Source: a virus
Virus record (IMG/VR): IMGVR_UViG_3300009177_000028
Location: 140,388 to 204,387 of that record
Reading direction: 5' to 3' (one strand)
Length of the DNA stretch: 64,000 nt
Part shown: positions 1,453 through 19,309 of the stretch, one piece after another
How the letters are laid out: each line of letters starts with the position of its first letter
How positions within the stretch are numbered: position 1 is the stretch's first letter
Made by a program: the position numbers and the translations under genes
The notes under the pieces: model-generated
Database searches by the model: none
What the model was told of the DNA's origin: nothing
Seen by the model: only the letters and a program-made list of their open reading frames with translations

Positions 1453-1476
1453 TTCTCGACAAAAGAATGGGGGATC
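1453..1476 (+). promoter_or_regulatory. 24-nt motif shared with 45569-45592
   Basis: TTCTCGACAAA.GAATG.GGGATC matches 22 of 24 bases with the copy at 45569. Both copies lie upstream of a gene start (24-30 nt and 41 nt). TCGACA followed 16 nt later by TATAGG could be a -35/-10 pair here, but the conserved block extends between them, so a regulator site or a dedicated promoter class is possible. The first gene of the paralogue array follows. Confidence 0.55.
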
Positions 1477-1499
1477 ATATAGGGGGATCAGTTATATTG

Positions 1500-2183
1500 A
1501 TGATCATGCGCCCCCAAACATTTGATCAGCTATTCCGATTCAGATCCCATTGTCTATGTGGATCTGAACTATCTACATTCTTTCCATATGGATCAAAGCT
1601 AAGAGACGATTATACATTCGTTAATTCTGTCGGTAGTCATCACATTGATGAGACTAGTAGTAAAGTAGTCTTCCTGTGCAACCTAACCGCCAATACCTCT
1701 CCCTATGGGCGAGTAGATTTCATGATGGAATGTTATGTTTCATCTCCTACTTTTAAATTGACGGCGACTAAAGAGTCCAAGAATATAATGTCCGCAGAAG
1801 ATTTCGTGAAGATTCATTTCACGGAGGATATTCAACAGGCGCAATGTATTACTTTAAAACGTATATGCTCTAAGGGAAACCTATGTGATTATCATTATGG
1901 TCTTTCCACCCAGCCCATTCTTTTTGATTTCAAGAGGAAAGAAATTAAACCAATTGATCTGGCTGAAGAATCATTTAGGATCAAGAATGATAAAGGTCTT
2001 GGATTCTACTTTAGAACCAATTTCACTGACGGGACAACTACCATTACCTACACTTCCCCGCATTCAGCCTTCGTAATTGGGACGCAGGAATCTATACAAA
2101 TGAAATCCGAAAAATTCCTCAAGTACCCGCTGAACCGAGAATTTTTATTAAATAAGGTTAAAACATTGCTCCTGTTTTCTTGA
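1500..2183 (+). CDS. zinc-knuckle/FS array protein 1 (long form)
   Basis: 227 residues from ATG 1500; ATG 1506 would align better with its paralogues, in which the first Cys falls at residue 13-17. AGGGGG at 1481-1486 is a weak ribosome binding site. The knuckle is CLC at 18-20, with a second cluster CSKGNLC mid-protein. It ends LLNKVKTLLLFS. Stop is TGA without an overlapping start, yet the Phe-Ser end is kept, coded TTT TCT. Founder position of the array, just after the shared 24-nt motif. Confidence 0.75.
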   Translation: MIMRPQTFDQLFRFRSHCLCGSELSTFFPYGSKLRDDYTFVNSVGSHHIDETSSKVVFLCNLTANTSPYGRVDFMMECYVSSPTFKLTATKESKNIMSAEDFVKIHFTEDIQQAQCITLKRICSKGNLCDYHYGLSTQPILFDFKRKEIKPIDLAEESFRIKNDKGLGFYFRTNFTDGTTTITYTSPHSAFVIGTQESIQMKSEKFLKYPLNREFLLNKVKTLLLFS

Positions 2184-2224
2184 CCGCCCGTGGTTATACT
2201 ATTTGGGCAGAGGTAAAAGTAACC

Positions 2225-3064
2225 ATGAAACGTCTCGGACCTATTTTATTCATTTCTGCGGTAGTATGTGTATCGTGTACACACGAAGATAATAAGAAGC
2301 TTTCTCCCACGGAAGATGTGCTCCGGCCATCCCTACCGCCAACAAGCTCGGTTGGACTTCCCCAAACCGCCCCTACAGTAGACGCCGCCCCAGCAGGTAA
2401 ATGCCCGGCAGATATGGTGGAAGTGGAGGGTGATTTCTGTCCTAACGTAGATCAAACCTGTATTAAGGTTGATAAGAGTATTCACAACGTTAACGGCTAT
2501 GCTAAGTGTGATGAATTTGCCCCCACCAAATGCTTATCGAAGCAACGAGTCCATATGCATTTTTGTATGGATCGTTATGAATGGCCAAATAAAAAAGAGG
2601 CCCGCCCATTGGTTATGCTAACCTGGAATGATATGAAACGTGAATGTGGGCAGATTGGTAAGAGAATCTGTGTAGATCATGAGTGGTCTCTGGCGTGTGA
2701 AGGGCCTGAAATTCTTCCCTATCCGTATGGGTTGGTGCGAGACGCCACCGCCTGTAATATCGACCATCCGCAAAAGCCTGATGCCAATATCAATAACATG
2801 AGCAAAGAGAATGTGGAATATCTATGGCAGGGCGTTTCTTCTGGTTCCATGGAAAGATGCGTTTCACCTTATGGCGTCCATGATATGACCGGGAACGTAG
2901 ACGAAAGCGTAGTCAATTCTGAGGGCAATCCATATCACAGCGCTGAGATGGGCGGTCATTGGGTAAAAGGTGCCCGCAATAGGTGCCGCCCCAAAACAAC
3001 CATTCATAATGAAGACTTTGCCTTTTATGAAATCGGCGGCCGTTGCTGCAAAGATATCAAATGA
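2225..3064 (+). CDS. lipoprotein with formylglycine-generating-enzyme (FGE) fold
   Basis: 279 residues from ATG 2225 (AGAGG upstream). A signal peptide ends at a weak lipobox, VCVSC, so it should be an outer-envelope lipoprotein. The mature part has the FGE-sulfatase pattern common in Myxococcota: HFCMDRYEW, GKRICVDHEWSLACEGP, YPYG, SPYGVHDMTGNV and a terminal GGRCCKD. The usual Trp after GNV.E is replaced by Ser (GNVDES), so catalysis is doubtful; many members are non-enzymatic surface modules. Its stop overlaps the next array gene by ATGA, tying it into the array transcript. Confidence 0.8.
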   Translation: MKRLGPILFISAVVCVSCTHEDNKKLSPTEDVLRPSLPPTSSVGLPQTAPTVDAAPAGKCPADMVEVEGDFCPNVDQTCIKVDKSIHNVNGYAKCDEFAPTKCLSKQRVHMHFCMDRYEWPNKKEARPLVMLTWNDMKRECGQIGKRICVDHEWSLACEGPEILPYPYGLVRDATACNIDHPQKPDANINNMSKENVEYLWQGVSSGSMERCVSPYGVHDMTGNVDESVVNSEGNPYHSAEMGGHWVKGARNRCRPKTTIHNEDFAFYEIGGRCCKDIK

Positions 3065-3708
3065 ACCTAACAGAGTTTGTGGAGTATAGGGAACAATGCC
3101 CTATTTGTGATTCCAAACTCCACTTCATTTTTCATTCTAAAAAGTGGCAAAGCATGCGATATGAAGATGATCGCTTACTTGTAATTTTTCGCATGGACTC
3201 CATTAAAAAGCACCAGCAAGACTATAAGGTAGGCTACTCATTTGGAATGAAAGATAATTCTTGGTATGTAGAGTTCTTTTCTAAAGATCAAAAGAGGTTT
3301 GAAGAAGAATCTCCAGAGCACCTGCGTAATAGGTTTAAAGAATTAGATAAGAACTTAAAATACTACCGATTTTACAAGTACTGTACATCTTGTTGTCGTT
3401 ATAATTACTCTTCTAATACCTTTATGTTAAATCAGAAAACTGGCCATATAGACAATTTATGCTTGGGTAACGAGTATTTTGGATTGTCACTTCCATTGGA
3501 GGATGGTAGGTACCGCATCTGTAAATTAAATAATGACTACATATTAAATATGAGTTCAATCTCTTTCTCTAAGGAAAAGAGTAACGTGTGGGCTAGGGCA
3601 GACTCATCAACGAATGAGATGAGTTTTATTCAGATTCCAAGTCTGATTAAGTTTACTACTCATGATGAAACCATTGCCCGAATTAATAAGCTAATGGTCT
3701 TCTCTTAA
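3061..3708 (+). CDS. zinc-knuckle/FS array protein 2 (long form)
   Basis: 215 residues. Start is ATG 3061 in an ATGA overlap with the upstream stop; an upstream in-frame TTG is unlikely. Helix NLTEFVEYREQ leads to CPIC (13-16); the second cluster is C108, C111, C112 (CTSCC), at the same residue numbers as in array protein 3. Ends IARINKLMVFS with TAA. Convergent with, and overlapping by 4 nt, the minus-strand gene that follows. Confidence 0.8.
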   Translation: MNLTEFVEYREQCPICDSKLHFIFHSKKWQSMRYEDDRLLVIFRMDSIKKHQQDYKVGYSFGMKDNSWYVEFFSKDQKRFEEESPEHLRNRFKELDKNLKYYRFYKYCTSCCRYNYSSNTFMLNQKTGHIDNLCLGNEYFGLSLPLEDGRYRICKLNNDYILNMSSISFSKEKSNVWARADSSTNEMSFIQIPSLIKFTTHDETIARINKLMVFS

Positions 3709-4235
3709 AGGAAAGCGCCCATCTTTTTAATGGCTTGCATCCATCTAATAATGTCTACCACAGTATCTACTGGAACATTTTGGGCAGAGCTAGAAATGCC
3801 GTTATCAAACCATTGAAGCCACTTTCTACCAAAGAATCTATTATCTTTAGACCAATCCATTCGGAAATCCATGTTGCAAGGATTACCTGATGGAGTTTTG
3901 TATTTCTTCTCCCAGACCTCAATGTCCATGGTAAGGTCTACGCCTTTCCCAAATTTATCTGGATAGCCATGGTATCTTTCAATCTTAATTAGGAAGTCAC
4001 CCACCTTTATATTCATGCACTTATATAATGCCTCTTGGATGCTGTCTTTCCTGCATTTGGTTACATCCACTACCCCATGATGGTTATGTATTCTAATCTT
4101 TTCTTTGGCAGGTGGGTCAGCCCAGATCCAGGCTTCATCCGGTGGGTTTAAAGGCTCATCCTCATCCGAGTCGTATTGCTGATCGGTTAACTCCTCTAAA
4201 AGTTTGAGGTATTCTTCTTTAGAAATGGAAGTCAT
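3705..4235 (-). CDS. hypothetical acidic protein, minus strand
   Basis: 176 residues, ATG at 4235. Acidic Asp/Glu/Pro N-terminus (SDEDEPLNPPDE), then a Trp-rich body (AWIWADPP, KWLQWFDNG). Its C-terminus VVDIIRWMQAIKKMGAFL resembles that of the minus-strand gene at 8298-8732 (IDIIMYVKRLNNLKMFL), so the two may be distant relatives. It is transcribed divergently from the kinase-fold gene, with a 12-bp palindrome between them. Family unknown. Confidence 0.65.
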   Translation of the reverse strand: MTSISKEEYLKLLEELTDQQYDSDEDEPLNPPDEAWIWADPPAKEKIRIHNHHGVVDVTKCRKDSIQEALYKCMNIKVGDFLIKIERYHGYPDKFGKGVDLTMDIEVWEKKYKTPSGNPCNMDFRMDWSKDNRFFGRKWLQWFDNGISSSAQNVPVDTVVDIIRWMQAIKKMGAFL

Positions 4236-4250
4236 GGCTTATTATTAAAT

Positions 4251-4262
4251 ATAACCGGTTAT
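4251..4262. promoter_or_regulatory. 12-bp palindrome in a divergent intergenic region
   Basis: ATAACCGGTTAT is a perfect palindrome centred in the 48-bp AT-rich gap between the divergent genes at 4235 and 4284, where an operator controlling both would be expected. Inference from position and symmetry only. Confidence 0.4.
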
Positions 4263-4283
4263 TAATAAATTTGTATTTAATAC

Positions 4284-4940
4284 ATGGACGCTAACAAGTT
4301 ACTTAAAAGGGCCATTTACTTTCATTCATTGGCCACTTCTAGCGAAGAGATGCCAGACAATTCTAAGGACTTGAAAACTATTCTCAAGAATATAGAAGGT
4401 CTGGAAAACTACAACTCTCGCAAGGAATATGCAGAAAAGAACCTAAAGCATTTGTCTTCAAGCTCTTCTCGTATCGTCTATTCTACCAGTAAAGATACTA
4501 TTATTAAGTTAGCTAAGAATGATAAAGGTATTGCTCAGAATAAAGCTGAGTGCAACCCTAAGATGAAGTCTAAGTTTTTGAACGAAGTAATCGGTCATGC
4601 CACCAATTATTCTTGGATGGAGACCCATTATTTGGATAAGATCACGGCCAAGGAATTTAATGAGATGACTGGGCTTGATTTTGATGATTTTGGAGAAAGT
4701 ATCCGTTATGGTTTAAAAAATGTTTCCGGCAACACTGACAAAGAAAAGCCAGCTAACTTCGACAAAGTGTCGGAATCGGAAATATATAAGGAGATGTTTA
4801 GGATCGGTAAAGAGTTCAAGCTAATGCCAGGTGACTTAGCAAGAATCTCTTCTTGGGGGACTAAAGATGGCCGCCCAGTTCTTATCGATGCTGGTCTTAC
4901 CAAAGACGTATTCTCCGAGTATTATGAATCTTCCTCATGA
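4284..4940 (+). CDS. protein-kinase-fold protein
   Basis: 218 residues from ATG 4284. A Ser-rich loop SSSSSRIVY (58-66) stands where the glycine loop is expected, followed by TIIKLAKN with candidate ATP-binding Lys75 and QNKAE. Near the C-terminus DLARISSWG and RPVLIDAGLTKDVFSEYY match the catalytic-to-DFG region of small kinase-like proteins seen in large phages (LID.GLT in place of DFG). By family it may phosphorylate a protein or be a pseudokinase. It overlaps the next array gene by ATGA. Confidence 0.6.
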   Translation: MDANKLLKRAIYFHSLATSSEEMPDNSKDLKTILKNIEGLENYNSRKEYAEKNLKHLSSSSSRIVYSTSKDTIIKLAKNDKGIAQNKAECNPKMKSKFLNEVIGHATNYSWMETHYLDKITAKEFNEMTGLDFDDFGESIRYGLKNVSGNTDKEKPANFDKVSESEIYKEMFRIGKEFKLMPGDLARISSWGTKDGRPVLIDAGLTKDVFSEYYESSS

Positions 4941-5536
4941 TTAAATTTTCTTCTTTCAAAGAAGCCATTAACTACCAGCCCGTATGTCCGTTATGTCGTA
5001 GCCAACTACACATTAACGATAGAGATTTGGCCGCTGACTATGGCTTCGAATACCGTGGCGATAAACGTGAGAGAATCTCTTTCTTCGTTAACCGACGAGA
5101 AGATGATACTCTAACTATTGATCCGGAAACTGATGAAGTTGAACTACTTTATGCTAACAGAATGCCACCCAGTATTCCTAATTACAACAGTCCAACACAT
5201 TACACTAACCCTCCAAAAGCATACAATGGAAGATTTCTTCACGCTCTAACTATTGATTGTAAGAGCTGCTGTCAATATGGTTTTACTCTACAACTTCATT
5301 TTGATTTGACAGAACAAAAGTTAGCTTCTGCCTTTCTAAATTCTGAAACCGTAAATATTACGGAATGTGAAATGGTACATGAAATCAAGAATATTTATGC
5401 TACCGAAAAGACTCACTATACTTATTTCCCAAGGGACGGTAGCTGCAAGCAAACCACTCTCCCTTTGATTGCTTTAGACTTATCTAATCCATTAGAGACG
5501 GTGGCGCGCATTCGTAAGCTATTAATTTTTTCATGA
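4937..5536 (+). CDS. zinc-knuckle/FS array protein 3 (long form)
   Basis: 199 residues, ATG in an ATGA overlap. CPLC at 17-20; CKSCC at 108-112, same spacing and cluster as array protein 2, which makes these two the closest visible pair. Ends VARIRKLLIFS, coded TTT TCA TGA, overlapping the next start. Confidence 0.85.
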   Translation: MIKFSSFKEAINYQPVCPLCRSQLHINDRDLAADYGFEYRGDKRERISFFVNRREDDTLTIDPETDEVELLYANRMPPSIPNYNSPTHYTNPPKAYNGRFLHALTIDCKSCCQYGFTLQLHFDLTEQKLASAFLNSETVNITECEMVHEIKNIYATEKTHYTYFPRDGSCKQTTLPLIALDLSNPLETVARIRKLLIFS

Positions 5537-6240
5537 GCCTTTCTGAGTTTTTAACATTTAGTCAGCAGTGTCCCATTTGCGGCGAGTCCCTAAACTTGTA
5601 CATGCAATGGATTAATTTTACTTGTTTTAAGGCTACTTTACTGGAACCAAATCTTTATCAATTTGATCCCTTCCTCCGAAATAATATGGTTTTACAACAG
5701 GTGGAGGACGATGATTATATGCTTTTGAAGAACAATGGGGACACCATAGAAACCCAAATGTCCTCCAGCAAGATTCTCCAAGAGGCCAAGAAATACCACA
5801 TATACTTCTTTTATCTTTGCAATCCATTAGGGTTCCAAAAGAAGAAATATGGAGACTATCAAATTAACCTATATAAAGGATGTTACTATCGAGATAGCGC
5901 CATTATGGAATTTCAAAGGAATGAAGACCAAGATAATAAATCTTGGAAATTAACATACCTAGATAAAGATCATAAACATTTATCTAATAAATGTGAATCA
6001 TTCAGTTTTAAACGTACTCTTAATAATATAGAAAGGGTTTATATGCTAGACCTAAACTATGATCAAAAGGTTACTACCATATGGCACTATTCTGTTACGG
6101 AAGAAGAAAAGAAGATTGAGTCATTCGAGCCCAAGATATTTGAAAAGAAGATGCCTCTACTTAAAAATAGACCTAGATTAGGATTAGAAGATAGGGACAA
6201 ACTAATAGATAGATTTGATTCCTGGATTATTATGTCATGA
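5533..6240 (+). CDS. zinc-knuckle/FS array protein 4 (long form, Met-Ser end)
   Basis: 235 residues, longest of the family. CPIC at 13-16; the second site is reduced to single Cys residues (YLCNP at 96, KGCYY later). The C-terminus [11 protein letters not shown] keeps the terminal Ser but has Met for Phe. ATGA overlaps on both sides. Confidence 0.8.
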   Translation: MSLSEFLTFSQQCPICGESLNLYMQWINFTCFKATLLEPNLYQFDPFLRNNMVLQQVEDDDYMLLKNNGDTIETQMSSSKILQEAKKYHIYFFYLCNPLGFQKKKYGDYQINLYKGCYYRDSAIMEFQRNEDQDNKSWKLTYLDKDHKHLSNKCESFSFKRTLNNIERVYMLDLNYDQKVTTIWHYSVTEEEKKIESFEPKIFEKKMPLLKNRPRLGLEDRDKLIDRFDSWIIMS

Positions 6241-6632
6241 GTAAAATTGTACTTTGTCCCGATCACTATTATAATTGTCCCATTTGTGGGAAGCCCTGCG
6301 ATGTGGTAGAGCAGGAAGGGTTTAATTTACAAATTAGGTTGCAAGGCTCATGCCAGGTATTTTATTGCTACAACCCACTTGTCACAGACCCTTTGCATTA
6401 TTATAGTCACATAGTGGAGAAAACCAATCCTAACAAGCTAGCCTTCCATGAGTTCTCCTTAAACCTAGGGAATAAAAGCGTATTATTCTCCAACAACTTT
6501 CTGATTCAGAAGAGCTTAATTAAGAATAACAAAGACTCTAAGCCTCTCGAATTGGGTTTTGTTATCATGCCAGATTTTCCAAACCTTGATTCTCTGAAGA
6601 AAAAAGTTAGAACTGCCATTACATTTTCATGA
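6237..6632 (+). CDS. zinc-knuckle/FS array protein 5
   Basis: 131 residues, first of the short forms. C7, C14, C17, C21 near the N-terminus (CPICGKPC) and a later YCYNP. Ends [12 protein letters not shown]. Its stop overlaps the prfB start by ATGA, so prfB is translationally coupled to it. Confidence 0.85.
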
Positions 6633-7726
6633 AAACGATACTTCAACTGGTTGAATCCTGTCAGGATAAAGTAAAAATCCTGGAAGAGATGATTCCTGTC
6701 AAAAAACATCAGAATAGACTGGCCGAGCTTGACGAACGAGTCTCGATGGACGGAGATCTATGGAATGATCCAAGAGCCGCTGCCGCCCTTATGAAAGAAA
6801 GGCAAAAGCTATCAGACCTTCTAGAGACTATGAAGTACTTCCATGATCAGTCTGAATTCTACTCTGAATGCTGGAAGGTCATGCCTAATGAAATGGATGA
6901 AATGGTCCCGGCCATGTCCCTGTTAGAAGCGACCATGGATAGCTTTGAGTTTAAACAGATGCTCAAAGACCCAGTAGATGACAGTGCCGCCATTGTATCT
7001 ATCAACGCAGGCGCAGGCGGCCTTGAGGCAGCCAATTGGGTAACCATGCTACTCCGCATGTACTCCCGTTATGCAGATTCTTATAAATTCAAGGTGGAGC
7101 TTCTAGATATGAAGCCTTCCGAAGAACATAGCGCCATCTGTACAGACTCAGTTTCCATTAGGGTAGAAGGCCCATATGCCTACGGGTTTCTAAAGGGTGA
7201 GGCTGGCGTTCATAGGTTGATTCGTAACTCTCCATTCAATGCTGGGGATGCCCGCCATACTTCCTTTGCGGCAGTAGCCGTCACGCCCGACATTGAAGAC
7301 ACTATTGATATCGTCATTAATGAAAAAGATATAGAAATCACCACCATGAGAGCCTCTGGAGCTGGTGGACAGAATGTCAACAAGGTTGAAAGCGCAGTCC
7401 GTTTGAAGCACTTACCAACCGGCATAGTTATCAACTCTCGTTCTGAGCGAGACCAGCATACCAATCGTCGTTTAGCCATGAAGATGTTAAAGGCTAAGCT
7501 ATATGATTTAGAGATGCGCAAGAAGATGTCCGAGAAGGAAAAATATCTGATGAGCATGTCGGATAACGCTTTCGGAAACCAAATGCGTACCTATACTTTG
7601 ACCCCCTATCAGCTTGTCAAGGACGAAAGAACCGACCATCAAGTAAGGGACGCCGACAGCGTCCTAGATGGTGATATCCAAGGGTTCCTTATCTCTTATT
7701 TGCGTTTTAGAGATAAACTATTATAA
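6629..7726 (+). CDS. prfB: peptide chain release factor 2 (RF2)
   Basis: 365 residues, full length. By family RF2 reads UAA and UGA and triggers peptide release on the ribosome. SPF (201-203) is the RF2-specific codon-recognition tripeptide and GGQ (246-248) the catalytic motif; HRLIRNSPF, the HTSFAAV strand and [11 protein letters not shown] are typical. The frame is continuous: the in-frame UGA +1 frameshift site near codon 26 that autoregulates most bacterial prfB genes is absent. It starts in an ATGA overlap inside the paralogue array and ends TAA one base before the next array gene. The array is coupled mainly through UGA stops, the codon RF2 reads. Confidence 0.93.
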
Positions 7727-7727
7727 T

Positions 7728-8303
7728 ATGAAGAAGTTTACTGTCAAGGATTTTATCGCTTACAACAACCCTTGCTTTAGCTGCGGCGAAAGAATATCTT
7801 TTAAAATTGGAATCATTGAAAACACAATAGATGGCATGGCCCATTTAAGGCCCACAGTCGCTCCCGAACATACTGTGGTTGATTTAAAGATTACCTATAA
7901 TAGTAGTTTACAGTTATGGATATTCCATAAGTCTAATAAGATTATCTCATCCAATAATAAAGAATTAACCACCTTCTTATCTAAGAACAATATATTTCTA
8001 CATAGCAGATGTGATAAATGCTATACCAACGTTCAGAGTCAATTCTTAGAGTTTAACCTAGATAAGGGGTTCATTAAACCCGTAGGTATTAGCGAAGAAA
8101 TGATTATCATTACGGATGACAATAATATGTACCACGTGAACTCTTCATTCATAGAAGAGCGAACTAGTGTGGTGGTCGACCGCTTGGATAAAGCAACGCC
8201 AGTCTCCCCGATTAAATTTGAATTACCTCTCTTGCCCATGTATAAGTTCAAGGACAAAGAGCATTTTCTTAATAAGATGAAGACTTATGTTCTGTTCTCA
8301 TAA
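7728..8303 (+). CDS. zinc-knuckle/FS array protein 6 (long form)
   Basis: 191 residues from ATG 7728, one base after the prfB stop; the longer frame from 7668 lies inside prfB and is rejected. CFSC at 16-19 and CDKC at 95-98. Ends LNKMKTYVLFS with TAA. Convergent with the next minus-strand gene, overlapping by 6 nt. Confidence 0.8.
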   Translation: MKKFTVKDFIAYNNPCFSCGERISFKIGIIENTIDGMAHLRPTVAPEHTVVDLKITYNSSLQLWIFHKSNKIISSNNKELTTFLSKNNIFLHSRCDKCYTNVQSQFLEFNLDKGFIKPVGISEEMIIITDDNNMYHVNSSFIEERTSVVVDRLDKATPVSPIKFELPLLPMYKFKDKEHFLNKMKTYVLFS

Positions 8304-8732
8304 GAACATTTTCAAGTTATTCAATCTCTTAACATACATAATAATATCAATTAGATTCTTAATTCTTAGATTATAGTCTTTGTTTAGTTCAGTCCAGTAT
8401 TGATTCTTAAACCTCTTGTCATTACAGAGGTTGATATTGTAAATGGAACTGCCTGAACGGGAGCGCTCATAAATAGCTACACGGAAGCGGCCGTATTCTT
8501 TAAGACGCTCTCTGTCTTTAGATGAATCAAGCGAGGAAAACAGCAAGCGAATTTGATACATACCAACCATGATGTCGTTCTCGACTAAGGTGTATGTAGT
8601 GGAATCTGGTAATTGAACTAACTCTCGGACTTCGGCCTTGCGGAGGGCTTCCTTGATTTTGTTCTTGGAAATCTTCTCTTTACTAAAGTCTAGAATGGTT
8701 CTGAATTCTTGCTTGCCTTTAATTAAACTCAT
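8298..8732 (-). CDS. hypothetical protein, minus strand
   Basis: 144 residues, Lys/Arg-rich N-terminal helices (KEKISKNKIKEALRKAE), then a beta-rich middle (GMYQIRLLFSSLD, GRFRVAIYERS). The C-terminal IDIIMYVKRLNNLKMFL resembles the end of the gene at 3705-4235. Start overlaps the upstream minus-strand gene by 4 nt, so the two form an operon. Unknown family. Confidence 0.65.
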   Translation of the reverse strand: MSLIKGKQEFRTILDFSKEKISKNKIKEALRKAEVRELVQLPDSTTYTLVENDIMVGMYQIRLLFSSLDSSKDRERLKEYGRFRVAIYERSRSGSSIYNINLCNDKRFKNQYWTELNKDYNLRIKNLIDIIMYVKRLNNLKMFL

Positions 8733-9001
8733 CTCTTTAATTCGTATCCTCCGAGGAGATGCTCGTTGTCATCTATGACCTTAATGACATCCTCGGTTAG
8801 CTCATCATCACGATAGTAGCCATAGATGGCCCCACCTAAACCTAATGCAGCTTTATGTACTTTTTCACCATACAAAAAGTACATCCCGATACCAAGTTTA
8901 TCACAATCAAGTATCTCAAAATGGTACCCGATGTCTGACTTAAAAACACGAAGAGTGAAGCGCGTATCGATAGATTTATTTAGAACAATTTCAGTTTTCA
9001 T
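8729..9001 (-). CDS. small hypothetical protein, minus strand
   Basis: 90 residues from ATG at 9001; a GTG at 9025 would add 8 and overlap the divergent plus-strand start, so it is less likely. Sequence MKTEIVLNKSIDTRF, then a Gly-rich stretch (ALGLGGAIYGYY) and an acidic end. Coupled to the downstream minus-strand gene by a 4-nt overlap. Unknown. Confidence 0.6.
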   Translation of the reverse strand: MKTEIVLNKSIDTRFTLRVFKSDIGYHFEILDCDKLGIGMYFLYGEKVHKAALGLGGAIYGYYRDDELTEDVIKVIDDNEHLLGGYELKR

Positions 9002-9016
9002 GTAGAGGTATATATC

Positions 9017-10112: not shown

Positions 10113-10152
10113 ATTAATTAGTGAGCGTTTGCGCAGGGTTATATACGAGTAT

Positions 10153-10500
10153 ATGGACGATACTCTGCACTGCCCTATTTGCGGCAATAAAATGCGCACG
10201 GTGAACATAAAGCAACTATATGAAAGAACAGGGAATTGGGCGGAACGCACCTGCAATGGAATGAATCATTCTCTGCAAGTGGTTGCCACTCCAAAAGGGA
10301 AGGTTGATTTACTTAAACTGTCACTCAATCCTAAATACTCAAAATTTTTAGAAATTGATTTTGTCAATCAAAAATGTCGCATTATCTGTATGAAAGATAG
10401 TAAGCCAGATTATATTGACATAGCTAAGATGATTGAGCCAGACTTTCCGGATCTGGTTAAGCTAAAGGAAAGAGTGCTGCTATATGTTACCTTCTCATGA
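10153..10500 (+). CDS. zinc-knuckle/FS array protein 10
   Basis: 115 residues from ATG 10153; the in-frame TTG at 10129 would add 8 residues not seen in relatives. CPIC at 7-10 and C34. Ends LKERVLLYVTFS. A 40-nt gap to the previous gene is the only untranslated gap between 9.0 and 13.9 kb, so initiation here is independent. Confidence 0.8.
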   Translation: MDDTLHCPICGNKMRTVNIKQLYERTGNWAERTCNGMNHSLQVVATPKGKVDLLKLSLNPKYSKFLEIDFVNQKCRIICMKDSKPDYIDIAKMIEPDFPDLVKLKERVLLYVTFS

Positions 10501-10832
10501 AAACACCATGTCCATTTTGTCGTTCTGAACTTGAAGAGTTTAAAGATAAATTCATTACCACCCATGCCTGTTATGATTCTGCCTGCATCAACGATGATAT
10601 GCCAAGGTATAAGGAAATCTACGAAAACACTTCCGAGTCGTTAATAGAACGATACTTCATGATGGGCGGATACTATATCCAAGTAAGCTATAAGAACAAT
10701 TGGACAGTTATTTCTAGATTAGAAGCATGTCTCCTTTTTGATTCAGTCCAAATACCTACCGCCCTTAAAGTAGATTTAACCAATCCATTAGATATTCTCA
10801 ATAAAGTTAAACTTTTTATGATATTTTCATGA
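10497..10832 (+). CDS. zinc-knuckle/FS array protein 11
   Basis: 111 residues. CPFC at 5-8, C25 and C30. Ends LNKVKLFMIFS. ATGA overlaps upstream and downstream. Confidence 0.85.
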   Translation: MKTPCPFCRSELEEFKDKFITTHACYDSACINDDMPRYKEIYENTSESLIERYFMMGGYYIQVSYKNNWTVISRLEACLLFDSVQIPTALKVDLTNPLDILNKVKLFMIFS

Positions 10833-11194
10833 ATGATTATATATTTTGTCCATTTTGCGGAGGCGTTGAATGGATAACCGATAAATCGGGTTATGCGGGA
10901 AATGGACGATTAGAGTCTCATAAGTGTAAAGACTGTAAGAAATTTACTTATGTTAATCATTTTGAAAAAACTACTTCGCCAGGTGGACTAGAGCATTTTA
11001 GAAAAAGTAGATTCTCGATTGATGCTAGAATTGATCCTTATCAAGTAACAGTCTTTTATCATAAAGACTCAACCCAATTTAGGGACATTCACTCTGGATA
11101 CGTTATTTTAGTATTAAAGCAAGCAGTTACATTTAATTGGTATAAAAACGAAGAGCTAGTAGATAAAATTAAGAAGTATGTGGTGTTCTCGTGA
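10829..11194 (+). CDS. zinc-knuckle/FS array protein 12
   Basis: 121 residues. CPFC at 7-10 and CKDC at 33-36, a complete zinc-ribbon-like site. Ends VDKIKKYVVFS, coded TTC TCG TGA; the wobble G turns the downstream start into GTG (GTGA overlap). Confidence 0.85.
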   Translation: MNDYIFCPFCGGVEWITDKSGYAGNGRLESHKCKDCKKFTYVNHFEKTTSPGGLEHFRKSRFSIDARIDPYQVTVFYHKDSTQFRDIHSGYVILVLKQAVTFNWYKNEELVDKIKKYVVFS

Positions 11195-11577
11195 TTTGGC
11201 AATATAAAGACTGTCCACTTTGTGGCTGCGAAATGAAGGTAGTACAAGGGGATCCCAACGAGCCTTTGTATCTAATGAGGTGTCCCACCCAACTAGAGCT
11301 GCCCCAAAAGACCTACTTCACCCTATCAGAAGGTGGACTTATCTTAAACGAAATCATGACTCATTTCGAACTAGAGTTTCAGAATCATAAACCAATCTAT
11401 CAAGTAGTTAGAATCTATCCATTTGCTATTAAATCTTATGATGATGTCTCTAATATTTACAGATATGATGCTAGGATGAATTCTAGATTCATTGCCGAGA
11501 CTCCATATATAAATCTCCCTTGGAACGATAAAGAAAAGATAATCAAGAAACTCTCAACCTATACAGTATTCTCATGA
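11191..11577 (+). CDS. zinc-knuckle/FS array protein 13 (GTG start)
   Basis: 128 residues, GTG start in a GTGA overlap. CPLCGC at 8-13, then C31 in RCPTQ. Ends IKKLSTYTVFS. ATGA overlap to the next gene. Confidence 0.85.
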   Translation: MIWQYKDCPLCGCEMKVVQGDPNEPLYLMRCPTQLELPQKTYFTLSEGGLILNEIMTHFELEFQNHKPIYQVVRIYPFAIKSYDDVSNIYRYDARMNSRFIAETPYINLPWNDKEKIIKKLSTYTVFS

Positions 11578-11975
11578 CGCTACCCTGCCCCGTTTGCCAC
11601 GAAATTATGCAAACAACCGAAACCACTAATCTTATCATGTGCCCAAGGCGCAAGATCCATGTCCCATCTCTTAAACAAGACATAGAGACGGTTCATGCCA
11701 TCTACCATTTGAATTCAGAGAATAAGCCCATCCTAAAGGTCATCGAAGTTCTTCCATATACTTTTGAGATTCATGATAATCCTAAGGGCCTTAAACAAAC
11801 CAGAATAATTAAAACCATTAAATGGAATGACCGTAAATCATCTAGAACTACTAGGCTCAGGACAACCTCTCTGGAACGAGAGAACCTAATTACCGTTCCA
11901 GGAACAGTTAATTGCCAATGGGATGACCCCAAGCAAGTCCAAGAACGTGTCAACATGTATATGTTATTCTCATGA
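11574..11975 (+). CDS. zinc-knuckle/FS array protein 14
   Basis: 133 residues. CPVC at 5-8 and C23 in MCPRRK. Basic middle (KSSRTTRLRTTSLER). Ends VQERVNMYMLFS. ATGA overlaps both sides. Confidence 0.85.
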   Translation: MTLPCPVCHEIMQTTETTNLIMCPRRKIHVPSLKQDIETVHAIYHLNSENKPILKVIEVLPYTFEIHDNPKGLKQTRIIKTIKWNDRKSSRTTRLRTTSLERENLITVPGTVNCQWDDPKQVQERVNMYMLFS

Positions 11976-12343
11976 TATTCTCTACCGATCGTTGTCCATT
12001 ATGCAACCAGAAACTCAAATTAGAAATAATTGACGGTTCCTCGGGTAAGGTCGCCTTTCTCTACTACTGCGAGAAAAGAGAAATAACTCGTAATGAAAGC
12101 AATACAAGTTCCGTTGCAGTCCGACACTACGAGAATAGATCTTATCAAGGCGGAGAATTATCCTTTATGATTATTCCGCCTTTTGAATTGATGCATTCTC
12201 AAGCTAAGAAGTTAACTTCTGTTCGTGCGGCAAGTCCGTATCAACCCAAGAAAATTATTTTTGAAGTGCCCCTGCTTGACTTAGACTATTCCAAGACACA
12301 CCTTGTAATCGATAAAATCAAATTACTTACCCTATTCTCATGA
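11972..12343 (+). CDS. zinc-knuckle/FS array protein 15
   Basis: 123 residues. CPLC at 8-11 and C33 in YYCEK. Shares with neighbours a strand plus PP motif (MIIPPFELM) about 60 residues from the end. Ends IDKIKLLTLFS. Confidence 0.85.
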   Translation: MIFSTDRCPLCNQKLKLEIIDGSSGKVAFLYYCEKREITRNESNTSSVAVRHYENRSYQGGELSFMIIPPFELMHSQAKKLTSVRAASPYQPKKIIFEVPLLDLDYSKTHLVIDKIKLLTLFS

Positions 12344-12687
12344 ATAATTTTGCCATCGATTTCTGCCCCCTGTGTGACAAACCCCTACGGTTACGCCGTG
12401 TCTCCAAGGTCAATATCTATGATTGCCCCACCACTTACGAAGCCGTAACTGCCAATGGCATTAAGCAAAGAAGCCATTATGAGGTAGAGTGTGATGATGG
12501 CCAATGCATTCAACACGTCTATGTCTTACCCTGGAGTATTGATACTTTCGACAAGTATAATAAGTCCCGAGTTCATAAACTACACAATGGGCACCGCTGG
12601 AAGTTTGTAGTAGAATTACCGCCCATTCATCCAGACAAAGAAGATAAGCTTAAAGAGAGAATTAATCTACTGGTGGCGTATCTATGA
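12340..12687 (+). CDS. zinc-knuckle array protein 16 (Tyr-Leu end)
   Basis: 115 residues. CPLC at 9-12, C29 in DCPTTY. Ends LKERINLLVAYL, one of the departures from Phe-Ser, coded TAT CTA TGA while the ATGA overlap is retained. Confidence 0.85.
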   Translation: MNNFAIDFCPLCDKPLRLRRVSKVNIYDCPTTYEAVTANGIKQRSHYEVECDDGQCIQHVYVLPWSIDTFDKYNKSRVHKLHNGHRWKFVVELPPIHPDKEDKLKERINLLVAYL

Positions 12688-13088
12688 CTGAAGAACAAGA
12701 GTTTCAAAACTACCACCTACCAAAACCATGTAAGTTTTGTTCTCAGCCGGCCGGCTATGCACCCATTGATGCGCAGTCCGAAACTAATCGTCTCTGCGTT
12801 TATTTCTGCCATACTTGTAATGCTGAGTATGTCTATTTTAGAGATAATAAGATTATCAGTGAATCACTCTATACCGGCATTAATAATAGAGTTTATCGAT
12901 ATACCATTGCTTATGGCGATATTGGGCAAATTTGGTATGTGGAAAAGCCTGGTATCCCTGGTGCAGTCGTCAACAAGGGGATGAAGTTGCTGAAGAGTTT
13001 CAACCCCGGCAAAAACTGTGATACGACTCCTATCCTAACTCCCCAAAATGTAAATGAGAAGCTAAGAACATGGCTGGTCTTTCTTTGA
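12684..13088 (+). CDS. zinc-knuckle array protein 17 (Phe-Leu end)
   Basis: 134 residues. CKFC at 16-19 after a longer leader, then C38 and CHTC at 42-45. Ends VNEKLRTWLVFL, coded TTT CTT TGA. The A-to-T change that makes the next start TTG also makes the terminal codon Leu. Confidence 0.8.
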   Translation: MTEEQEFQNYHLPKPCKFCSQPAGYAPIDAQSETNRLCVYFCHTCNAEYVYFRDNKIISESLYTGINNRVYRYTIAYGDIGQIWYVEKPGIPGAVVNKGMKLLKSFNPGKNCDTTPILTPQNVNEKLRTWLVFL

Positions 13089-13480
13089 GATGTCATCTTT
13101 GTAACGCCGAGCTTCGCCCCAACAATTATGCTGATTGGGAAATTAGGAATAGAAAGCAAATTACCTACGCCTGTCCTCCAAGCCATCCTCCCCATGCCGC
13201 GATTGAAATGATCCATCCAGATCTTGAGATCAATTACTATAGCTTCCTCTTCCAAATTAAAGACCAACACTATAAACTGTGTTCCCGTGGCTACTCTATT
13301 ATTAGAGAAGCAGATTTCCCCATTACAGTACTTTATAAAGTAACCGTTGCAAAACAGGGACATACAGAGCACCAGATTCTTAGGATTCCTAGATTTTATC
13401 CTCTTGAATTGGCGCAGAGTTTCAATATTCACTGCCAAACAGTTTATCAAAAAATCAAACCACTAATAGTATTCTCATGA
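13085..13480 (+). CDS. zinc-knuckle/FS array protein 18 (TTG start)
   Basis: 131 residues if read from TTG 13085, which lies exactly where relatives have ATG in the 4-nt stop/start overlap (TTGA). ATG 13070 would add 5 residues and a 19-nt overlap and cannot be excluded. CHLC at 3-6, C30. Ends YQKIKPLIVFS. Confidence 0.75.
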   Translation: MRCHLCNAELRPNNYADWEIRNRKQITYACPPSHPPHAAIEMIHPDLEINYYSFLFQIKDQHYKLCSRGYSIIREADFPITVLYKVTVAKQGHTEHQILRIPRFYPLELAQSFNIHCQTVYQKIKPLIVFS

Positions 13481-13896
13481 AGCACTTCCAAACCAGAACC
13501 TGCCCGCTATGCAGCAAGAAGCTCAAACTGGGAGACGAAGACTCCCTCCATGACTTCTACTGCGAGGACTTCTACCTTAGAGGATACGGGATGAATGAGT
13601 TTTTCCTGCTGCTAGACGATGCCACTTCCGTCAGCAGTAGGCGCCGTACCCACATAAAGGAGCCCCATTACTCTATTGATGTAACGGAAGGAAAATACCG
13701 ACAGAGCACTATTATTCCTCCGTACTGGATTATCAGTACCGAGGAAGATAACAAGTCTCGCATCTATAAATTTGGACAAGAGATTAGCCTTCCATCAGAA
13801 CAAACTCTTCTGATGGAAGTCCCCCTAATTGTCCCCAGCGACTATCTTCCTGAACAATTCGCTAAGAAGATTAAGAACCTAGTCATCTTTACATGA
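13477..13896 (+). CDS. zinc-knuckle array protein 19 (Phe-Thr end)
   Basis: 139 residues. CPLC at 9-12, C29 in YCEDFY. Ends FAKKIKNLVIFT, coded TTT ACA TGA. The TGA still forms an ATGA, but the frame from that ATG closes after 18 codons inside the inserted two-component cassette: apparently an orphaned coupling site. Confidence 0.8.
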   Translation: MKHFQTRTCPLCSKKLKLGDEDSLHDFYCEDFYLRGYGMNEFFLLLDDATSVSSRRRTHIKEPHYSIDVTEGKYRQSTIIPPYWIISTEEDNKSRIYKFGQEISLPSEQTLLMEVPLIVPSDYLPEQFAKKIKNLVIFT

Positions 13897-14236
13897 AGTG
13901 TCTCAGAAGCTCTTGGAGCCCTGCTATATCGAATGGCTTCTTGAGGTAGGTACCTGGTTTGAATTCCTTGTCGAGATCGGCAGAGGCACTCATAACCACG
14001 ATGGGGGTAGAGTTCAGTCCCGCCTTCTTGGCGGCCACTAGAAACTCTCGTCCGCTCATGATGGACATCATCAGGTCAAGCAGGACCAAGCGGGGATGGT
14101 GGTCTTGGAGCCAGTTCAGGGCGTCTTGGCCGTTGTTGCAGGAGGCCATTTCCCACCCACTGTCCTCTAGGACAAAGCCCAGCACTTCTCGGAGGTCGAG
14201 GTCGTCATCCACAACCAGCACTTGAGGTTTATCCAC
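13889..14236 (-). CDS. single-domain response regulator (receiver)
   Basis: 115 residues from GTG 14236, preceded by GAAAGG; an upstream ATG (14278) would overlap the kinase by 37 nt. Receiver domain complete: acidic pocket VVDDD (8-12), phospho-acceptor Asp54 (LLDLMM), Ser83 (VMSAS), Lys100 (KKPFD). No output domain. It follows the kinase gene at once and is presumably its partner. GC-rich and convergent with the array, it looks inserted. Confidence 0.88.
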   Translation of the reverse strand: MDKPQVLVVDDDLDLREVLGFVLEDSGWEMASCNNGQDALNWLQDHHPRLVLLDLMMSIMSGREFLVAAKKAGLNSTPIVVMSASADLDKEFKPGTYLKKPFDIAGLQELLRHFM

Positions 14237-14241
14237 AACTT

Positions 14242-15396
14242 CTACCTTTCTTCCAAAACGCCGCTCATGGGCAGGCACAACCTGAAAACAGACCCAGGCC
14301 CATTAGGTGGGTCGTGAATCTCGATCCGCCCGCCAAGGCTCTTGGCGGCCTCTCCGGCGAGCCAAAGGCCAATCCCCATCCCGGCGTACTGGTCACCCGA
14401 GACGGCTCGCTCGAACCTCTGGAAAATGCGCTTGCGGTCTTTCTCAGGCACACCAATGCCATAGTCCCTCACATCGACCACAACCCAGCCGTCTACATGA
14501 GCTACATTGATATCAACAGGTTTTCCACAACCATATTTCATCGCGTTGTTGACCAGATTGGTCATAATCTGCTCAACCTTACTGACATCCCAAGTGCCGC
14601 GAATGCGCACTTTTGGCAAGTCAAGGCGAATCTCAATTCCCTGCCGTTTTGCCAAATCGTCATTCCTGAGCACAGTCTCTCGGATGACCTCACACACATC
14701 CGCATCTTGGAACGTCACTTGCGTGGGACTGGAGCGCCGTGAGACCTCTAGCAGGTCGCGTACAAGAGCGTTGAGCTTTTGTCCAGACCTCTCCACCGCT
14801 CCCAACCTCCTCAGAATCTCTGCCCTTGACAGCTCTTCCTTTGTCAATTTCTGCACCAAGTTCTGCGATGTCAAAAGAATACTAGAGATTGGCGTTTTCA
14901 ACTCATGAGCTGCCACTGAGATAAAGTCCTCTCTGATACTAATTGCCTGCTTGAGCTGCTCTCGATATTGAGATAGCTCAGTTATATCAACAAAGGAGAC
15001 GATTCCTTTGCCATCCTTCCCATGAGCTGGAGGGAGAAGCGCACCCTGACAGAGAAAGGTTCGCTTGTTGCCGGTCTCGGCGCAGGTCCAGTTAATCTCA
15101 TAGGCGGTAAAGGTCTCACCTCGGGCCACCCGTCTGGAGGGGTAGTCCCTTTCGGCAATTTGACTCCCATCGTTCTCGAAAAGCCCGCCCCGCCATCTTG
15201 CCTCATAGAGGCGAAAGGCTTCCGCATTCTCTTCGATACCGGCCGGCTCCACCTCTGGAACGACGTATTTGAGCGCGGTAGCGTTCGCATACAAGATCCG
15301 TGCCGTGTCCAGCTCGACTACAATAACTGCACTGGGAAGCGTATTCAGTAGCGCTTCCATCCACTTACGATGAGCCTGCTCTTCGAGTGTTATCAT
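14242..15396 (-). CDS. PAS-domain sensor histidine kinase (soluble)
   Basis: 384 residues from ATG 15396 with GAGGGG 7 nt upstream; an upstream ATG (15459) lacks such a site. PAS-like N-terminus (LNTLPSAVIVVELDTARILYAN), then HisKA with His164 in AAHELKTP, N box (LVNNAMKYG), G1 (DYGIGVP), F box (FQRFERA) and G2 (GMGIGLWLAG). No membrane segment, so it senses a cytoplasmic cue. By family it autophosphorylates His164 and passes phosphate to a receiver. Its TAG stop is the only TAG among called genes of the left compartment, another mark of foreign origin. Confidence 0.92.
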   Translation of the reverse strand: MITLEEQAHRKWMEALLNTLPSAVIVVELDTARILYANATALKYVVPEVEPAGIEENAEAFRLYEARWRGGLFENDGSQIAERDYPSRRVARGETFTAYEINWTCAETGNKRTFLCQGALLPPAHGKDGKGIVSFVDITELSQYREQLKQAISIREDFISVAAHELKTPISSILLTSQNLVQKLTKEELSRAEILRRLGAVERSGQKLNALVRDLLEVSRRSSPTQVTFQDADVCEVIRETVLRNDDLAKRQGIEIRLDLPKVRIRGTWDVSKVEQIMTNLVNNAMKYGCGKPVDINVAHVDGWVVVDVRDYGIGVPEKDRKRIFQRFERAVSGDQYAGMGIGLWLAGEAAKSLGGRIEIHDPPNGPGSVFRLCLPMSGVLEER

Positions 15397-15528
15397 GCGG
15401 TACCCCTCAGAGACTGTATGACCATGTCTCAGCAAGACGCAAGCACAATCGCCCAGCAAAAATCATGCCATGTTGCCTTTTGCCCCACCTGTGGTTAATT
15501 TTCCATCAGGAACTGGAATCTGAATTTT

Positions 15529-15942
15529 ATGAACTGCCCACTCTGCCAAACACCGCTTTCTATTGATGCTAGCGATGTGTATAAAGATCATCCAACTTAT
15601 AAATGTCCCATTCAAGTTAGTGGAGACGAATATACTCATTCCACTCATTACATCAAATACTTTTCGGCAGATTGGACCTACTCCCATTACAGAGAAGAGG
15701 CTGTCCTCCCACCCTACCGATTGATTAATTATTATAATTTTCGACAGGGCAAGAGTGATTACTCTGCTATCCAGGAGTATAAGTTTGTCAAGCATGCCCT
15801 CCAAAAGAATGGTCAGGTCAAGCGCTTCCCTTGCTTCGACCGATATAAGTTTCAAACGTTGATGCGCTTCGATCAATGCCTCTCCATCCCAGATAGTGAA
15901 CACTTCGTCAATCGAATCAAAACCCTCTTGGTCTTCTCATGA
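15529..15942 (+). CDS. zinc-knuckle/FS array protein 20
   Basis: 137 residues; first array gene after the two-component insertion. CPLC at 3-6, C26 in KCPIQV. Ends VNRIKTLLVFS. The 130-nt gap before it holds a short FCPTCG-coding scrap ending in TAA, perhaps a relic of a damaged array gene. Confidence 0.85.
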   Translation: MNCPLCQTPLSIDASDVYKDHPTYKCPIQVSGDEYTHSTHYIKYFSADWTYSHYREEAVLPPYRLINYYNFRQGKSDYSAIQEYKFVKHALQKNGQVKRFPCFDRYKFQTLMRFDQCLSIPDSEHFVNRIKTLLVFS

Positions 15943-16298
15943 GAACTTGTCCATTATGTAATAAAACTCTAATTAAGCAATCGGCCCAAGATGCTTGTGG
16001 GTACCAAGAGGATTGGTATTGTCCCGATGAGCTTCGTTTGGCCTCGGGACGTAAAGTCAATCACTATCGAGAATATCCTGAATTAGGATACACCGATATA
16101 TACTTACCGCCCTACCGCATCCGCAATCAAGATGGTCAATCCAAAATTGGTTATCTCTCCCAGTACAAAACTAAACGAAGAGTTCGTACTACTAGAGGGA
16201 AATACTATTTCAAAACCATCATCACCTGCCCACAACTCCACCCAGATACCGAAGAGAAACTTCTTAATAGAGTTAAACTCCTCCTATTAATATCATGA
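15939..16298 (+). CDS. zinc-knuckle array protein 21 (Ile-Ser end)
   Basis: 119 residues. CPLC at 4-7, C20 and C28 (WYCPDEL). The strand-PP motif YLPPYRI recurs here as in proteins 15, 19 and 20. Ends LNRVKLLLLIS. ATGA overlaps. Confidence 0.85.
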   Translation: MRTCPLCNKTLIKQSAQDACGYQEDWYCPDELRLASGRKVNHYREYPELGYTDIYLPPYRIRNQDGQSKIGYLSQYKTKRRVRTTRGKYYFKTIITCPQLHPDTEEKLLNRVKLLLLIS

Positions 16299-16675
16299 TG
16301 AATGGATTCAATCAATATCTTTGCGACTTTTGCCAGCAACCTTGCAGACGATCCACTGGAGCTAAAGAGTATGGGAAACATGCCCGATGGCAACGCTGCC
16401 TCTCATGCAAAGTCTCCTACGCCATTAGCCTAACAGGGCAAGTCAAATGCCGAATCTTTCGAGGCCCTGGAGAGGATGAATTCTATCAACTTAGAATCAA
16501 TTACAAAGAGAATATTTCTACCATCTGCTTCCTTAAAAAGGATAGTTGGATGTATAACAACCGCAAACAAACTACTTATAACTCAACCCAAATAGTTACC
16601 TTGGATCATTGCATTAAAGATATCTCGCCCCAAAATGTCCAAGATAAAATCAAATTGTATATTCTATTCTCATGA
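16295..16675 (+). CDS. zinc-knuckle/FS array protein 22
   Basis: 126 residues, ATG in an ATGA overlap (a second ATG follows at 16298). CDFCQQPC at 10-17 and CLSC at 35-38. Ends VQDKIKLYILFS. The preceding ISPQN resembles NPNN/TPEN in the next two members. Confidence 0.85.
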   Translation: MMNGFNQYLCDFCQQPCRRSTGAKEYGKHARWQRCLSCKVSYAISLTGQVKCRIFRGPGEDEFYQLRINYKENISTICFLKKDSWMYNNRKQTTYNSTQIVTLDHCIKDISPQNVQDKIKLYILFS

Positions 16676-17034
16676 TTAAATGTCATTTCTGCCAACGAAC
16701 TTGCCGTAAGGTGGTTCCCAATCAAAAAGAATTTGATCGCACTCCCTACTGGCGCTGCGATTATCATGGCTCAACCGTTGTTAGACAATATTACATCTCC
16801 GTTCAAGCGGAACCACTTTGCCTATCTCATATTGGTTTGATTACCTATTATAAAGATCTTCAATATGGAGCCTATCTTTTCTTTGATGAAGCTCACTTCC
16901 CCCATAAATTTAGAATCGATAAGATTAATCCATATCCACGGACCACTCAAACCGTTATGACCCTGGACTTCCATCCAGATATCACACCGGAAAATGTCCA
17001 GCAGAAACTCCCGACCTATATTATGTTCTCATGA
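16672..17034 (+). CDS. zinc-knuckle/FS array protein 23
   Basis: 120 residues. CHFCQRTC at 4-11, C29. Ends PENVQQKLPTYIMFS. The CxxCxxxC form is shared with proteins 22 and 24, marking a local subfamily. Confidence 0.85.
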   Translation: MIKCHFCQRTCRKVVPNQKEFDRTPYWRCDYHGSTVVRQYYISVQAEPLCLSHIGLITYYKDLQYGAYLFFDEAHFPHKFRIDKINPYPRTTQTVMTLDFHPDITPENVQQKLPTYIMFS

Positions 17035-17369
17035 ATTACTATTGCCTCTTCTGCGATCAACGATGCAAGAAAACTCACCCGGAAGCCTCCTGGTGGAAAT
17101 GCAGGCCATGCAAGGTCTCCTTCCATGATGATGACAATGGCCTTTGGAAAATTTCTTTCTCCGTCAACAAACCAGATGCCCTTTATACCTTGGACTTGCT
17201 CCTCAATGAAAATAAAACCGAGCTGTATGTCCTGGGCAGAGATCCCGTTCCCTCCATTATCGATTCCATTATGAATGGAAAGCTAACCATCTCCCTCCCC
17301 TCCATTATGCAAAATGTTAATCCCAATAACGTGGCGGATAAAGTAAAAACATTATTGGTCTTCTCCTGA
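17031..17369 (+). CDS. zinc-knuckle/FS array protein 24
   Basis: 112 residues. CLFCDQRC at 5-12, CRPC at 24-27. Ends NNVADKVKTLLVFS, coded TTC TCC TGA without an overlapping start. Last member of the coupled chain. Confidence 0.85.
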   Translation: MNYYCLFCDQRCKKTHPEASWWKCRPCKVSFHDDDNGLWKISFSVNKPDALYTLDLLLNENKTELYVLGRDPVPSIIDSIMNGKLTISLPSIMQNVNPNNVADKVKTLLVFS

Positions 17370-17415
17370 AATTTGCCACGACACAAAGTTTCATTCGATC
17401 CGCCCCATTTCGCGC

Positions 17416-17778
17416 ATGCACCTCAAAACCATTAGCTGCCAACAACGCTGGAGATACTACTGCCCCTTCTGCGACCAAGATATCACCCCGCCCGATGGCT
17501 ACACCATCAGCAGCTTCATCCAATGCCAATTCTGCCCCGTCACCACCAACTTGATCGTCAATGGCTCCATTTCCAATCCCAATATCGCCTATATCCAATT
17601 CCAGCAAGACCAGTTCATGATCGAACTCAATCAGGATGACCAAACCACGGCCCTCTTTGCCGGTCCCGTCAATGCTAGGCTTTCCCAAATGCTCAAGCTA
17701 AGCTACCTGGTCCCCGTCAATCCAAACAATTTCCACAATTGGCTAAGCAAGCTGCTCAACCTAAAAGCTTTCTCTTAA
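17416..17778 (+). CDS. zinc-knuckle/FS array protein 25 (end of array)
   Basis: 120 residues. C8, CPFC at 16-19 and CQFC at 37-40. The C-terminal NNFHNWLSKLLNLKAFS keeps Phe-Ser (TTC TCT TAA). Convergent with the metalloprotease gene, overlapping by 4 nt. Confidence 0.8.
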   Translation: MHLKTISCQQRWRYYCPFCDQDITPPDGYTISSFIQCQFCPVTTNLIVNGSISNPNIAYIQFQQDQFMIELNQDDQTTALFAGPVNARLSQMLKLSYLVPVNPNNFHNWLSKLLNLKAFS

Positions 17779-18419: not shown

Positions 18420-18431
18420 AAACCATCTCCC

Positions 18432-19196: not shown

Positions 19197-19309
19197 GCAG
19201 TACGTCCTAAATTTTCAAAAGACTCCCCAATCGAAGCCCAATTAAGAAAAATACCAGATTATCCCCAATTGTTTCCAATATTTCACAAAACTAAGACAGA
19301 TGTAATTTA

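Follow-up and report, generated by a model that had tools for sequence, protein, structure and literature searches.

The window analysed here is a 64-kb stretch at the end of a 204,387-bp IMG/VR virus contig (IMGVR_UViG_3300009177_000028), and it carries an array of 25 genes coding for zinc-ribbon proteins that end in a common C-terminal tail. Comparisons at the sequence level showed the last ~9-16 residues of these proteins ([K/R]-h-x-x-[L/Y]-x-h-F-[S/L/W/I]-COOH, with h a hydrophobic residue) to be a protein-level module found at the exact C-terminus of unrelated small proteins, and the zinc-ribbon array to be its densest user within the window. An earlier note on this DNA had described the segment as a signature of the array. 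It is indeed present in the family, but it also ends two zinc-less genes located inside the array and dozens of unrelated proteins in related viruses. The chances seem to us about even that the tail is a portable C-terminal address tag read by one common receptor.

All 25 genes listed in the earlier note were confirmed as open reading frames (ORFs) of the same strand, the + strand, spanning window positions 1467..17778 (Table 1). They are, by sequence comparison, one divergent family, because member-to-member BLAST links reach 2e-12 and a hidden Markov model (HMM) built from 20 members retrieves members in other phages with E values as low as 9e-20. Pfam and PHROGs contain no family above cut-off for the array members; the family is as unrecognised as the note had said, with no PDB link either. 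Other details were in need of adjustment. The genes had been called adjacent, and a 4-nt (ATGA) overlap does join 16 of the 24 successive pairs, but non-member genes interrupt the array at seven places: 2180, 3705(-), 4284, 6629 (RF2, peptide chain release factor 2), 8298(-), 8729(-) and 13889-15459(-). The N-terminal knuckle attributed to every protein is CxxC in 24 of them and CxC in member 1, and the Phe-Ser end, also attributed to all, was found in 20, the remainder ending in MS, YL, FL, FT or IS (Table 1).

In the architecture of the family, the N-terminal zinc ribbon is followed by a body that varies and by [K/R]-h-x-x-h-h-h-F-[S/L] at the exact C-terminus. When all 25 members were aligned, three Cys columns were invariant and the position of the fourth zinc ligand was occupied about equally often by C and H. 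Short and long members have a C-terminal domain of ~63 columns in common. Statistics on the tail were obtained from a collection of 202 members, which came from 16 loci plus the contig: Phe is located at -2 in 183 of them and K or R at exactly -9 in 188. Helix packing alone would not require these two positions to be nearly so strongly fixed. The possibility that the FS end is a by-product of the TCATGA overlap was rejected, as FS is equally frequent in members with the 4-nt overlap (59/100) and without it (60/102).

The occurrence of the tail on other proteins was assessed with a position-specific scoring matrix (PSSM) of the last 16 residues, which was trained on the ribbon family alone and used with a cut-off score of >3; for non-ribbon proteins this threshold is not circular. 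The matrix flags three non-ribbon genes in the contig, 8298-8732(-) at a score of 10.3, contig 91607-91918(+) at 8.2 and 3705-4235(-) at 6.5, well apart from the next best gene at 0.1. Two of the three are minus-strand genes within the array and the third is found elsewhere in the contig (Table 1). By hhalign (97%) the minus-strand pair are homologs, and when their family was compared with the ribbon family using the same program, the alignment was restricted to the last 12-16 residues. Among the related IMG/VR records, 13 non-ribbon genes scored above the cut-off in G008, 25 in G016 and 52 in G005. Sliding the matrix by 1-6 residues left just 0-3 genes, and none of the 562 genes of Bacillus phage G, a jumbo phage with its own zinc-ribbon expansion, was flagged. 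With a slightly wider tail rule, ribbon and non-ribbon carriers together amount to 48 of 655 genes in G008, 51 of 644 in G016 and 116 of 706 in G005 (~7-16%); these totals are approximate, the rule having been picked after the hits were seen and the gene set being a mechanical ORF selection.

The carriers outside the ribbon family belong to many unrelated BLAST clusters. Nearly all carriers are small, with 0-3 per genome reaching at least 300 amino acids. Among them is a family of DGPA/MORN-like repeats, which in other contigs of the clade occurs in tandem with a recurring KLKAFW-stop end. In two such contigs (L286:7580-9790 and L298:6905-10414) nearly all the tandem MORN/DGPA-like repeat proteins end in ..QF/EFERLMRLKAFW or close variants. 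Codon use in the tails is mostly genome-like, the exception being GCA for Ala in G016, and therefore selection acts on the protein and not on the RNA. An RNA-level cause of the tail, whether the 4-nt overlap or a 3' element, was rejected on this ordinary codon use and on the independence of FS frequency from the overlap.

Predicted structures were obtained for a ribbon protein and for a zinc-less carrier. The AlphaFold2 model of member 10, based on a 69-sequence alignment, has a mean pLDDT (predicted local distance difference test) of 90.5 and consists of the ribbon, seven strands and a C-terminal helix. The model of 8298-8732(-) has a topology unlike that of member 10, and its final residues fall outside the confident part. 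A Foldseek search of the PDB found no significant match for either model. The member-10 fold does match the BFVD/UniProt proteins A0A6J5RKM0, A0A6J5RSP1 and A0A6J5RRN2 from uncultured Caudovirales phage (best E 5e-12, TM-score ~0.9). Judging from the modelled fold, these three are probably members of the zinc-ribbon family; they are uncharacterised and hence give no function for the array. Such models bear on the idea that the tail would be the C-terminal helix of one ancient fold, the other parts of which, including the zinc ribbon, decayed beyond recognition. The ~63-column domain of short and long members is consistent with it, and so is the high confidence with which the helix is placed in the member-10 model. 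It is nonetheless improbable in our estimation, as the predicted topologies of member 10 and 8298-8732 differ, the hhalign match between their families ends at the tail, the tail-bearing DGPA/MORN-like repeats are clearly another fold, and an exact carboxy end would not be expected from packing alone.

The portable address tag is proposed because the PSSM is position-exact on non-ribbon genes, the tail is absent from phage G, its carriers are unrelated and the topologies of the two models differ. In addition, a near-invariant Phe by the carboxylate combined with a basic residue fixed at -9 has the look of a docking peptide. The tag, in the form [K/R]-h-x-x-L-K-A-F-x or [K/R]-h-K-T-L/Y-h-h-F-S followed by COOH, would be a short helix with the Phe one residue before the free carboxylate, and one common receptor would read it on all carriers. 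Each body (zinc ribbon plus beta-sheet, DGPA/MORN-like repeats, VG/DxRF fold and others) would have its own job and its own target, and the tag would gather all the carriers at one place or machine, which could be the capsid, a protease or another structure. A clade that marks such a fraction of its genes, in several unrelated folds, with one tag could thus possess a virus-encoded protein-sorting code, in which a single phage or host receptor gathers takeover proteins; we place this somewhat short of an even chance. If the tag is common to several folds, the question moves from the job of each protein to what reads the tag. On the strength of their last ten residues, tens of genes per genome that could not otherwise be annotated fall into one class, and carriers elsewhere in the clade can be found simply by the tail.

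The foremost candidate for the receptor is the capsid interior, although this is on the unlikely side. In that case the tag would work like an encapsulin cargo peptide or the capsid-targeting sequence of T4, and small takeover proteins would be packaged and, at ejection, leave with the DNA. The T4 internal proteins are several small, variable phage proteins with one common terminal capsid-targeting signal. This signal is N-terminal, is cut off by the prohead protease and is found on few proteins. In encapsulins, terminal peptides load unrelated cargo into HK97-fold shells (PMC8346489). The likeness lies in a short C-terminal peptide common to unrelated proteins; the peptide in the clade studied here has another sequence, marks tens of proteins per genome and has a receptor that is postulated. 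Several considerations weigh against the address tag. In the member-10 model, confidence in the placement of the tail helix extends to the last residues, and the helix may be a plain fold element in that protein. The last residue of the tail varies with lineage and family (S, L, W, I). The function as an address is read from sequence and presupposes a receptor, and packaging in the capsid is argued by analogy with the encapsulin cargo peptides and the T4 internal proteins.

A tail at the exact C-terminus could also be a degron, or an SspB-like adaptor docking peptide, for the Clp protease, in which case the carriers would be timed for removal or would deliver host proteins. C-terminal peptides are classic recognition elements for ClpXP and for the contact between SspB and ClpX, and the KAF[LI] ends faintly recall a MuA-type degron. 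Furthermore, two adjacent clpP genes were found in all 10 long records (G005, G006, G008, G009, G010, G012, G016 and G031-G033). However, no Clp unfoldase was detected in the same records (0/10 for PF10431 ClpB_D2-small and for the PF06689 ClpX zinc domain), and therefore a host unfoldase would be needed. The tail of member 10 is predicted to be folded and not exposed, and a degron on as many as 16% of the genes would be unusual. Taken together, we consider proteolysis unlikely.

Translation could be hijacked by tagged proteins that dock on ribosomes or phage translation factors, which would agree with the presence of RF2 inside each array that covers that stretch. In G008, tagged genes abut those of EF-G (69467, with a 4-nt overlap) and EF-Ts (76849), and another is two genes away from the tyrosyl-tRNA synthetase TyrRS (127192), a gene that in G009 again precedes the orthologous member. 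Redirection of host translation is a known trait of huge phages (PMC7162821). Nonetheless, few tagged loci fit this arrangement, several other translation genes (IF3, peptide deformylase, trigger factor) lack it, and the names of these enzymes were assigned by eye. The bodies of the ribbon proteins, once the tail is left out, are near neutral in charge, which also speaks against ribosome docking; overall, we consider it quite unlikely. For the same reason, strongly basic DNA-binding transcription factors were not favoured as an identity for the ribbon proteins. Also considered was membrane anchoring of the MinD or FtsA kind, through an amphipathic helix at the C-terminus. The tail is slightly basic and somewhat amphipathic (median moment of 0.28-0.29 vs 0.23 for shuffled tails), but a lipid-binding discriminant is passed by 10-15% of the tails compared to 11% of other small proteins, 40-47% of the tails are under its lower limit, and binding to a membrane does not require a near-invariant Phe. 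A role as membrane anchor is therefore very unlikely.

The earlier note suggested that the array could be a decoy, inhibitor or adaptor repertoire that faces variable host targets, with diversifying selection acting on the bodies of the proteins. Two observations agree with that interpretation: paralogs from a single phage differ very strongly, and genes are gained and lost between lineages in the right half of the array. Selection was analysed in the orthologs of the record pairs G000/G002 and G007/G008. A relative has one-to-one orthologs of ~20 of the 25 members, arranged in unchanged order. Silent differences are saturated (median pS 0.72-0.75), so strict dN/dS is unusable for the array, and replacement differences are at 0.30-0.35, showing no replacement excess. 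Identity between orthologs is 0.46-0.53 for the body, close to the 0.50-0.59 seen at the ribbon end (first 30 residues); the C-tail (last 16 residues) is the sole part that is more conserved, at 0.62-0.65. The array genes diverge more overall than their neighbours. As far as sequence comparison can tell, this pattern points to purifying selection on every part of the proteins. Since orthologs are kept in order, silent sites are saturated and bodies are conserved, the array is best described as an old paralog set, individually maintained, and not as a hypervariable repertoire. Diversifying selection on the bodies was thus not borne out, and with most genes being retained instead of churned, a diversifying repertoire is very unlikely.

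Large tandem sets of zinc-ribbon genes in jumbo phages have one described precedent, in Bacillus phage G. It has a ~35-copy zinc-ribbon expansion (e.g., YP_009015343.1), whose proposed roles are those of transcription factors or structural DNA-binding proteins (PMC7824862). We recovered 35 zinc-ribbon paralogs from this phage, most of which lie in tandem on one strand at 352.5-371 kb, as a block of near-abutting genes. Both cases involve a jumbo phage with tens of small CPxC...C zinc-ribbon paralogs in tandem and a conserved helix-like segment near the C-terminus. The HMMs of the two sets find each other's members weakly (best 1e-6), and hhalign matches the ribbon only (26 columns, probability 89.9, E 1.7e-6), with no whole-protein homology. 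In phage G the C-terminal motif is YWKENDRYLAKIL and not ..F[SL]-COOH, the C-terminal WKENDRYLAKIL-type segment of the array family is missing, and no F-x tail is found on its other proteins. The Lar restriction alleviation proteins (PF14354 / phrog_599) are likewise small phage zinc-ribbon proteins, and weak Pfam matches to Lar in 2 of the 25 members (best E 0.0069) fell short of the curated cut-off. Lar is not known to occur in arrays or with the C-tail. Limited searches of the open-access literature produced no system that matches the clade-wide tail. The novelty lies in this clade-wide tail, the array alone resembling the phage G precedent.

The zinc-ribbon family was found in 14 of 30 related IMG/VR records, several of which have at least 20 copies, with a maximum of ~30. 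A scan with the best-conserved ortholog group identified 14 viral loci, with HMM counts of 7-31 members per locus. No further members were found elsewhere in the 204-kb contig, and a tblastn search with the concatenated members gave no match among INPHARED phages. Gene order is conserved: a dUTPase-like flank (named by eye) is followed by long members, RF2, a long member, a minus-strand gene, short members and a metalloprotease-like gene. The RF2 proteins of all the array loci covering that stretch are 51-81% identical. Three groups of neighbouring genes were also observed. A lipoprotein with an FGE-sulfatase (SUMF1-like) domain is encoded inside the array at 2180-3064 and is kept in several relatives. 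Between members 19 and 20, a GC-rich segment at 13889-15459(-) codes for a response regulator and a sensor histidine kinase (named by eye), and this insert has no homolog in the arrays of the relatives. At 17775-19852(-) are genes for a matrixin-like metalloprotease, a trypsin-like lipoprotein (by eye) and a C39-like peptidase, which are syntenic after the array in relatives.

Table 1. Members of the zinc-ribbon array, other genes located among them and non-ribbon genes flagged by the tail PSSM. Coordinates are those of the window unless the contig is indicated.
Feature	Coordinates	Strand	Remarks
Array member 1	1467..2183	+	long form; CxC; FS end; start may be 1500
Array member 2	3043..3708	+	long; FS end
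Zinc-less protein, same C-tail (..KKMGAFL)	3705..4235	-	PSSM-flagged; homolog of 8298-8732, unrelated to array family
Conserved array-resident protein, phrog_4301 (unknown function)	4284..4940	+	55-81% identity in relatives
Array member 3	4937..5536	+	long; FS end
Array member 4	5533..6240	+	long; MS end
Array member 5	6237..6632	+	FS end
Peptide chain release factor 2 (RF2)	6629..7726	+	PCRF + RF-1 domains; GGQ, SPF motifs
Array member 6	7668..8303	+	long; FS end; start probably 7728
Zinc-less protein, same C-tail (..RLNNLKMFL)	8298..8732	-	PSSM-flagged; different predicted fold
Array member 7	9017..9346	+	
Array member 8	9343..9699	+	
Array member 9	9696..10112	+	
Array member 10	10129..10500	+	most widely conserved ortholog group; start probably 10153; AlphaFold2 model
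Array member 11	10497..10832	+	
Array member 12	10829..11194	+	
Array member 13	11191..11577	+	
Array member 14	11574..11975	+	
Array member 15	11972..12343	+	
Array member 16	12340..12687	+	YL end
Array member 17	12684..13088	+	FL end
Array member 18	13070..13480	+	
Array member 19	13477..13896	+	FT end
Array member 20	15529..15942	+	
Array member 21	15939..16298	+	IS end
Array member 22	16295..16675	+	
Array member 23	16672..17034	+	
Array member 24	17031..17369	+	
Array member 25	17416..17778	+	
Non-ribbon gene	contig 91607..91918	+	PSSM-flagged

The contig codes for a contractile tail sheath, DnaB, ribonucleotide reductase, an IMP-dehydrogenase-like protein and a PhuZ-like tubulin, and no tRNA genes were found in it. 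The tail sheath has 73 relatives in IMG/VR, on contigs reaching 480 kb, and the initial 160 kb of the contig are collinear with part of the 480-kb relative G008. Because of the contractile sheath, the size of the contigs carrying its relatives and the collinearity with G008, the contig is, from its gene content, a fragment of a jumbo myophage. Neither the best-conserved array member nor the tail sheath had a match in the GTDB bacterial genomes. A phmmer search with gp105 (chimallin) of 201phi2-1, a component of the phage nucleus, gave no match in G000 or G008, a search that divergent shells could escape; the PhuZ-like tubulin is present. The GC content shifts from ~0.41 to 0.55 and ORFs become sparser across window positions 20000-64000, where almost no ORF has a homolog in G008. 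A chimeric assembly at this ~20-kb point was rejected, as G008 has the same shift (0.42 to 0.57) at 420 kb, immediately after its array, and the 20000-64000 region therefore looks like a real genome compartment. TAA is the stop codon in 83 of 110 genes in the main part of the contig, and the array favours TGA. The translation genes of G008, named by eye, comprise EF-G, EF-Ts, IF3, RF2, TyrRS, TrpRS, peptide deformylase, trigger factor and peptidyl-tRNA hydrolase. Upstream of the window, at contig positions 3799-131599, the tripeptide DGY is strikingly recurrent in structural and tail-fibre-like proteins, as seen in their N-termini.

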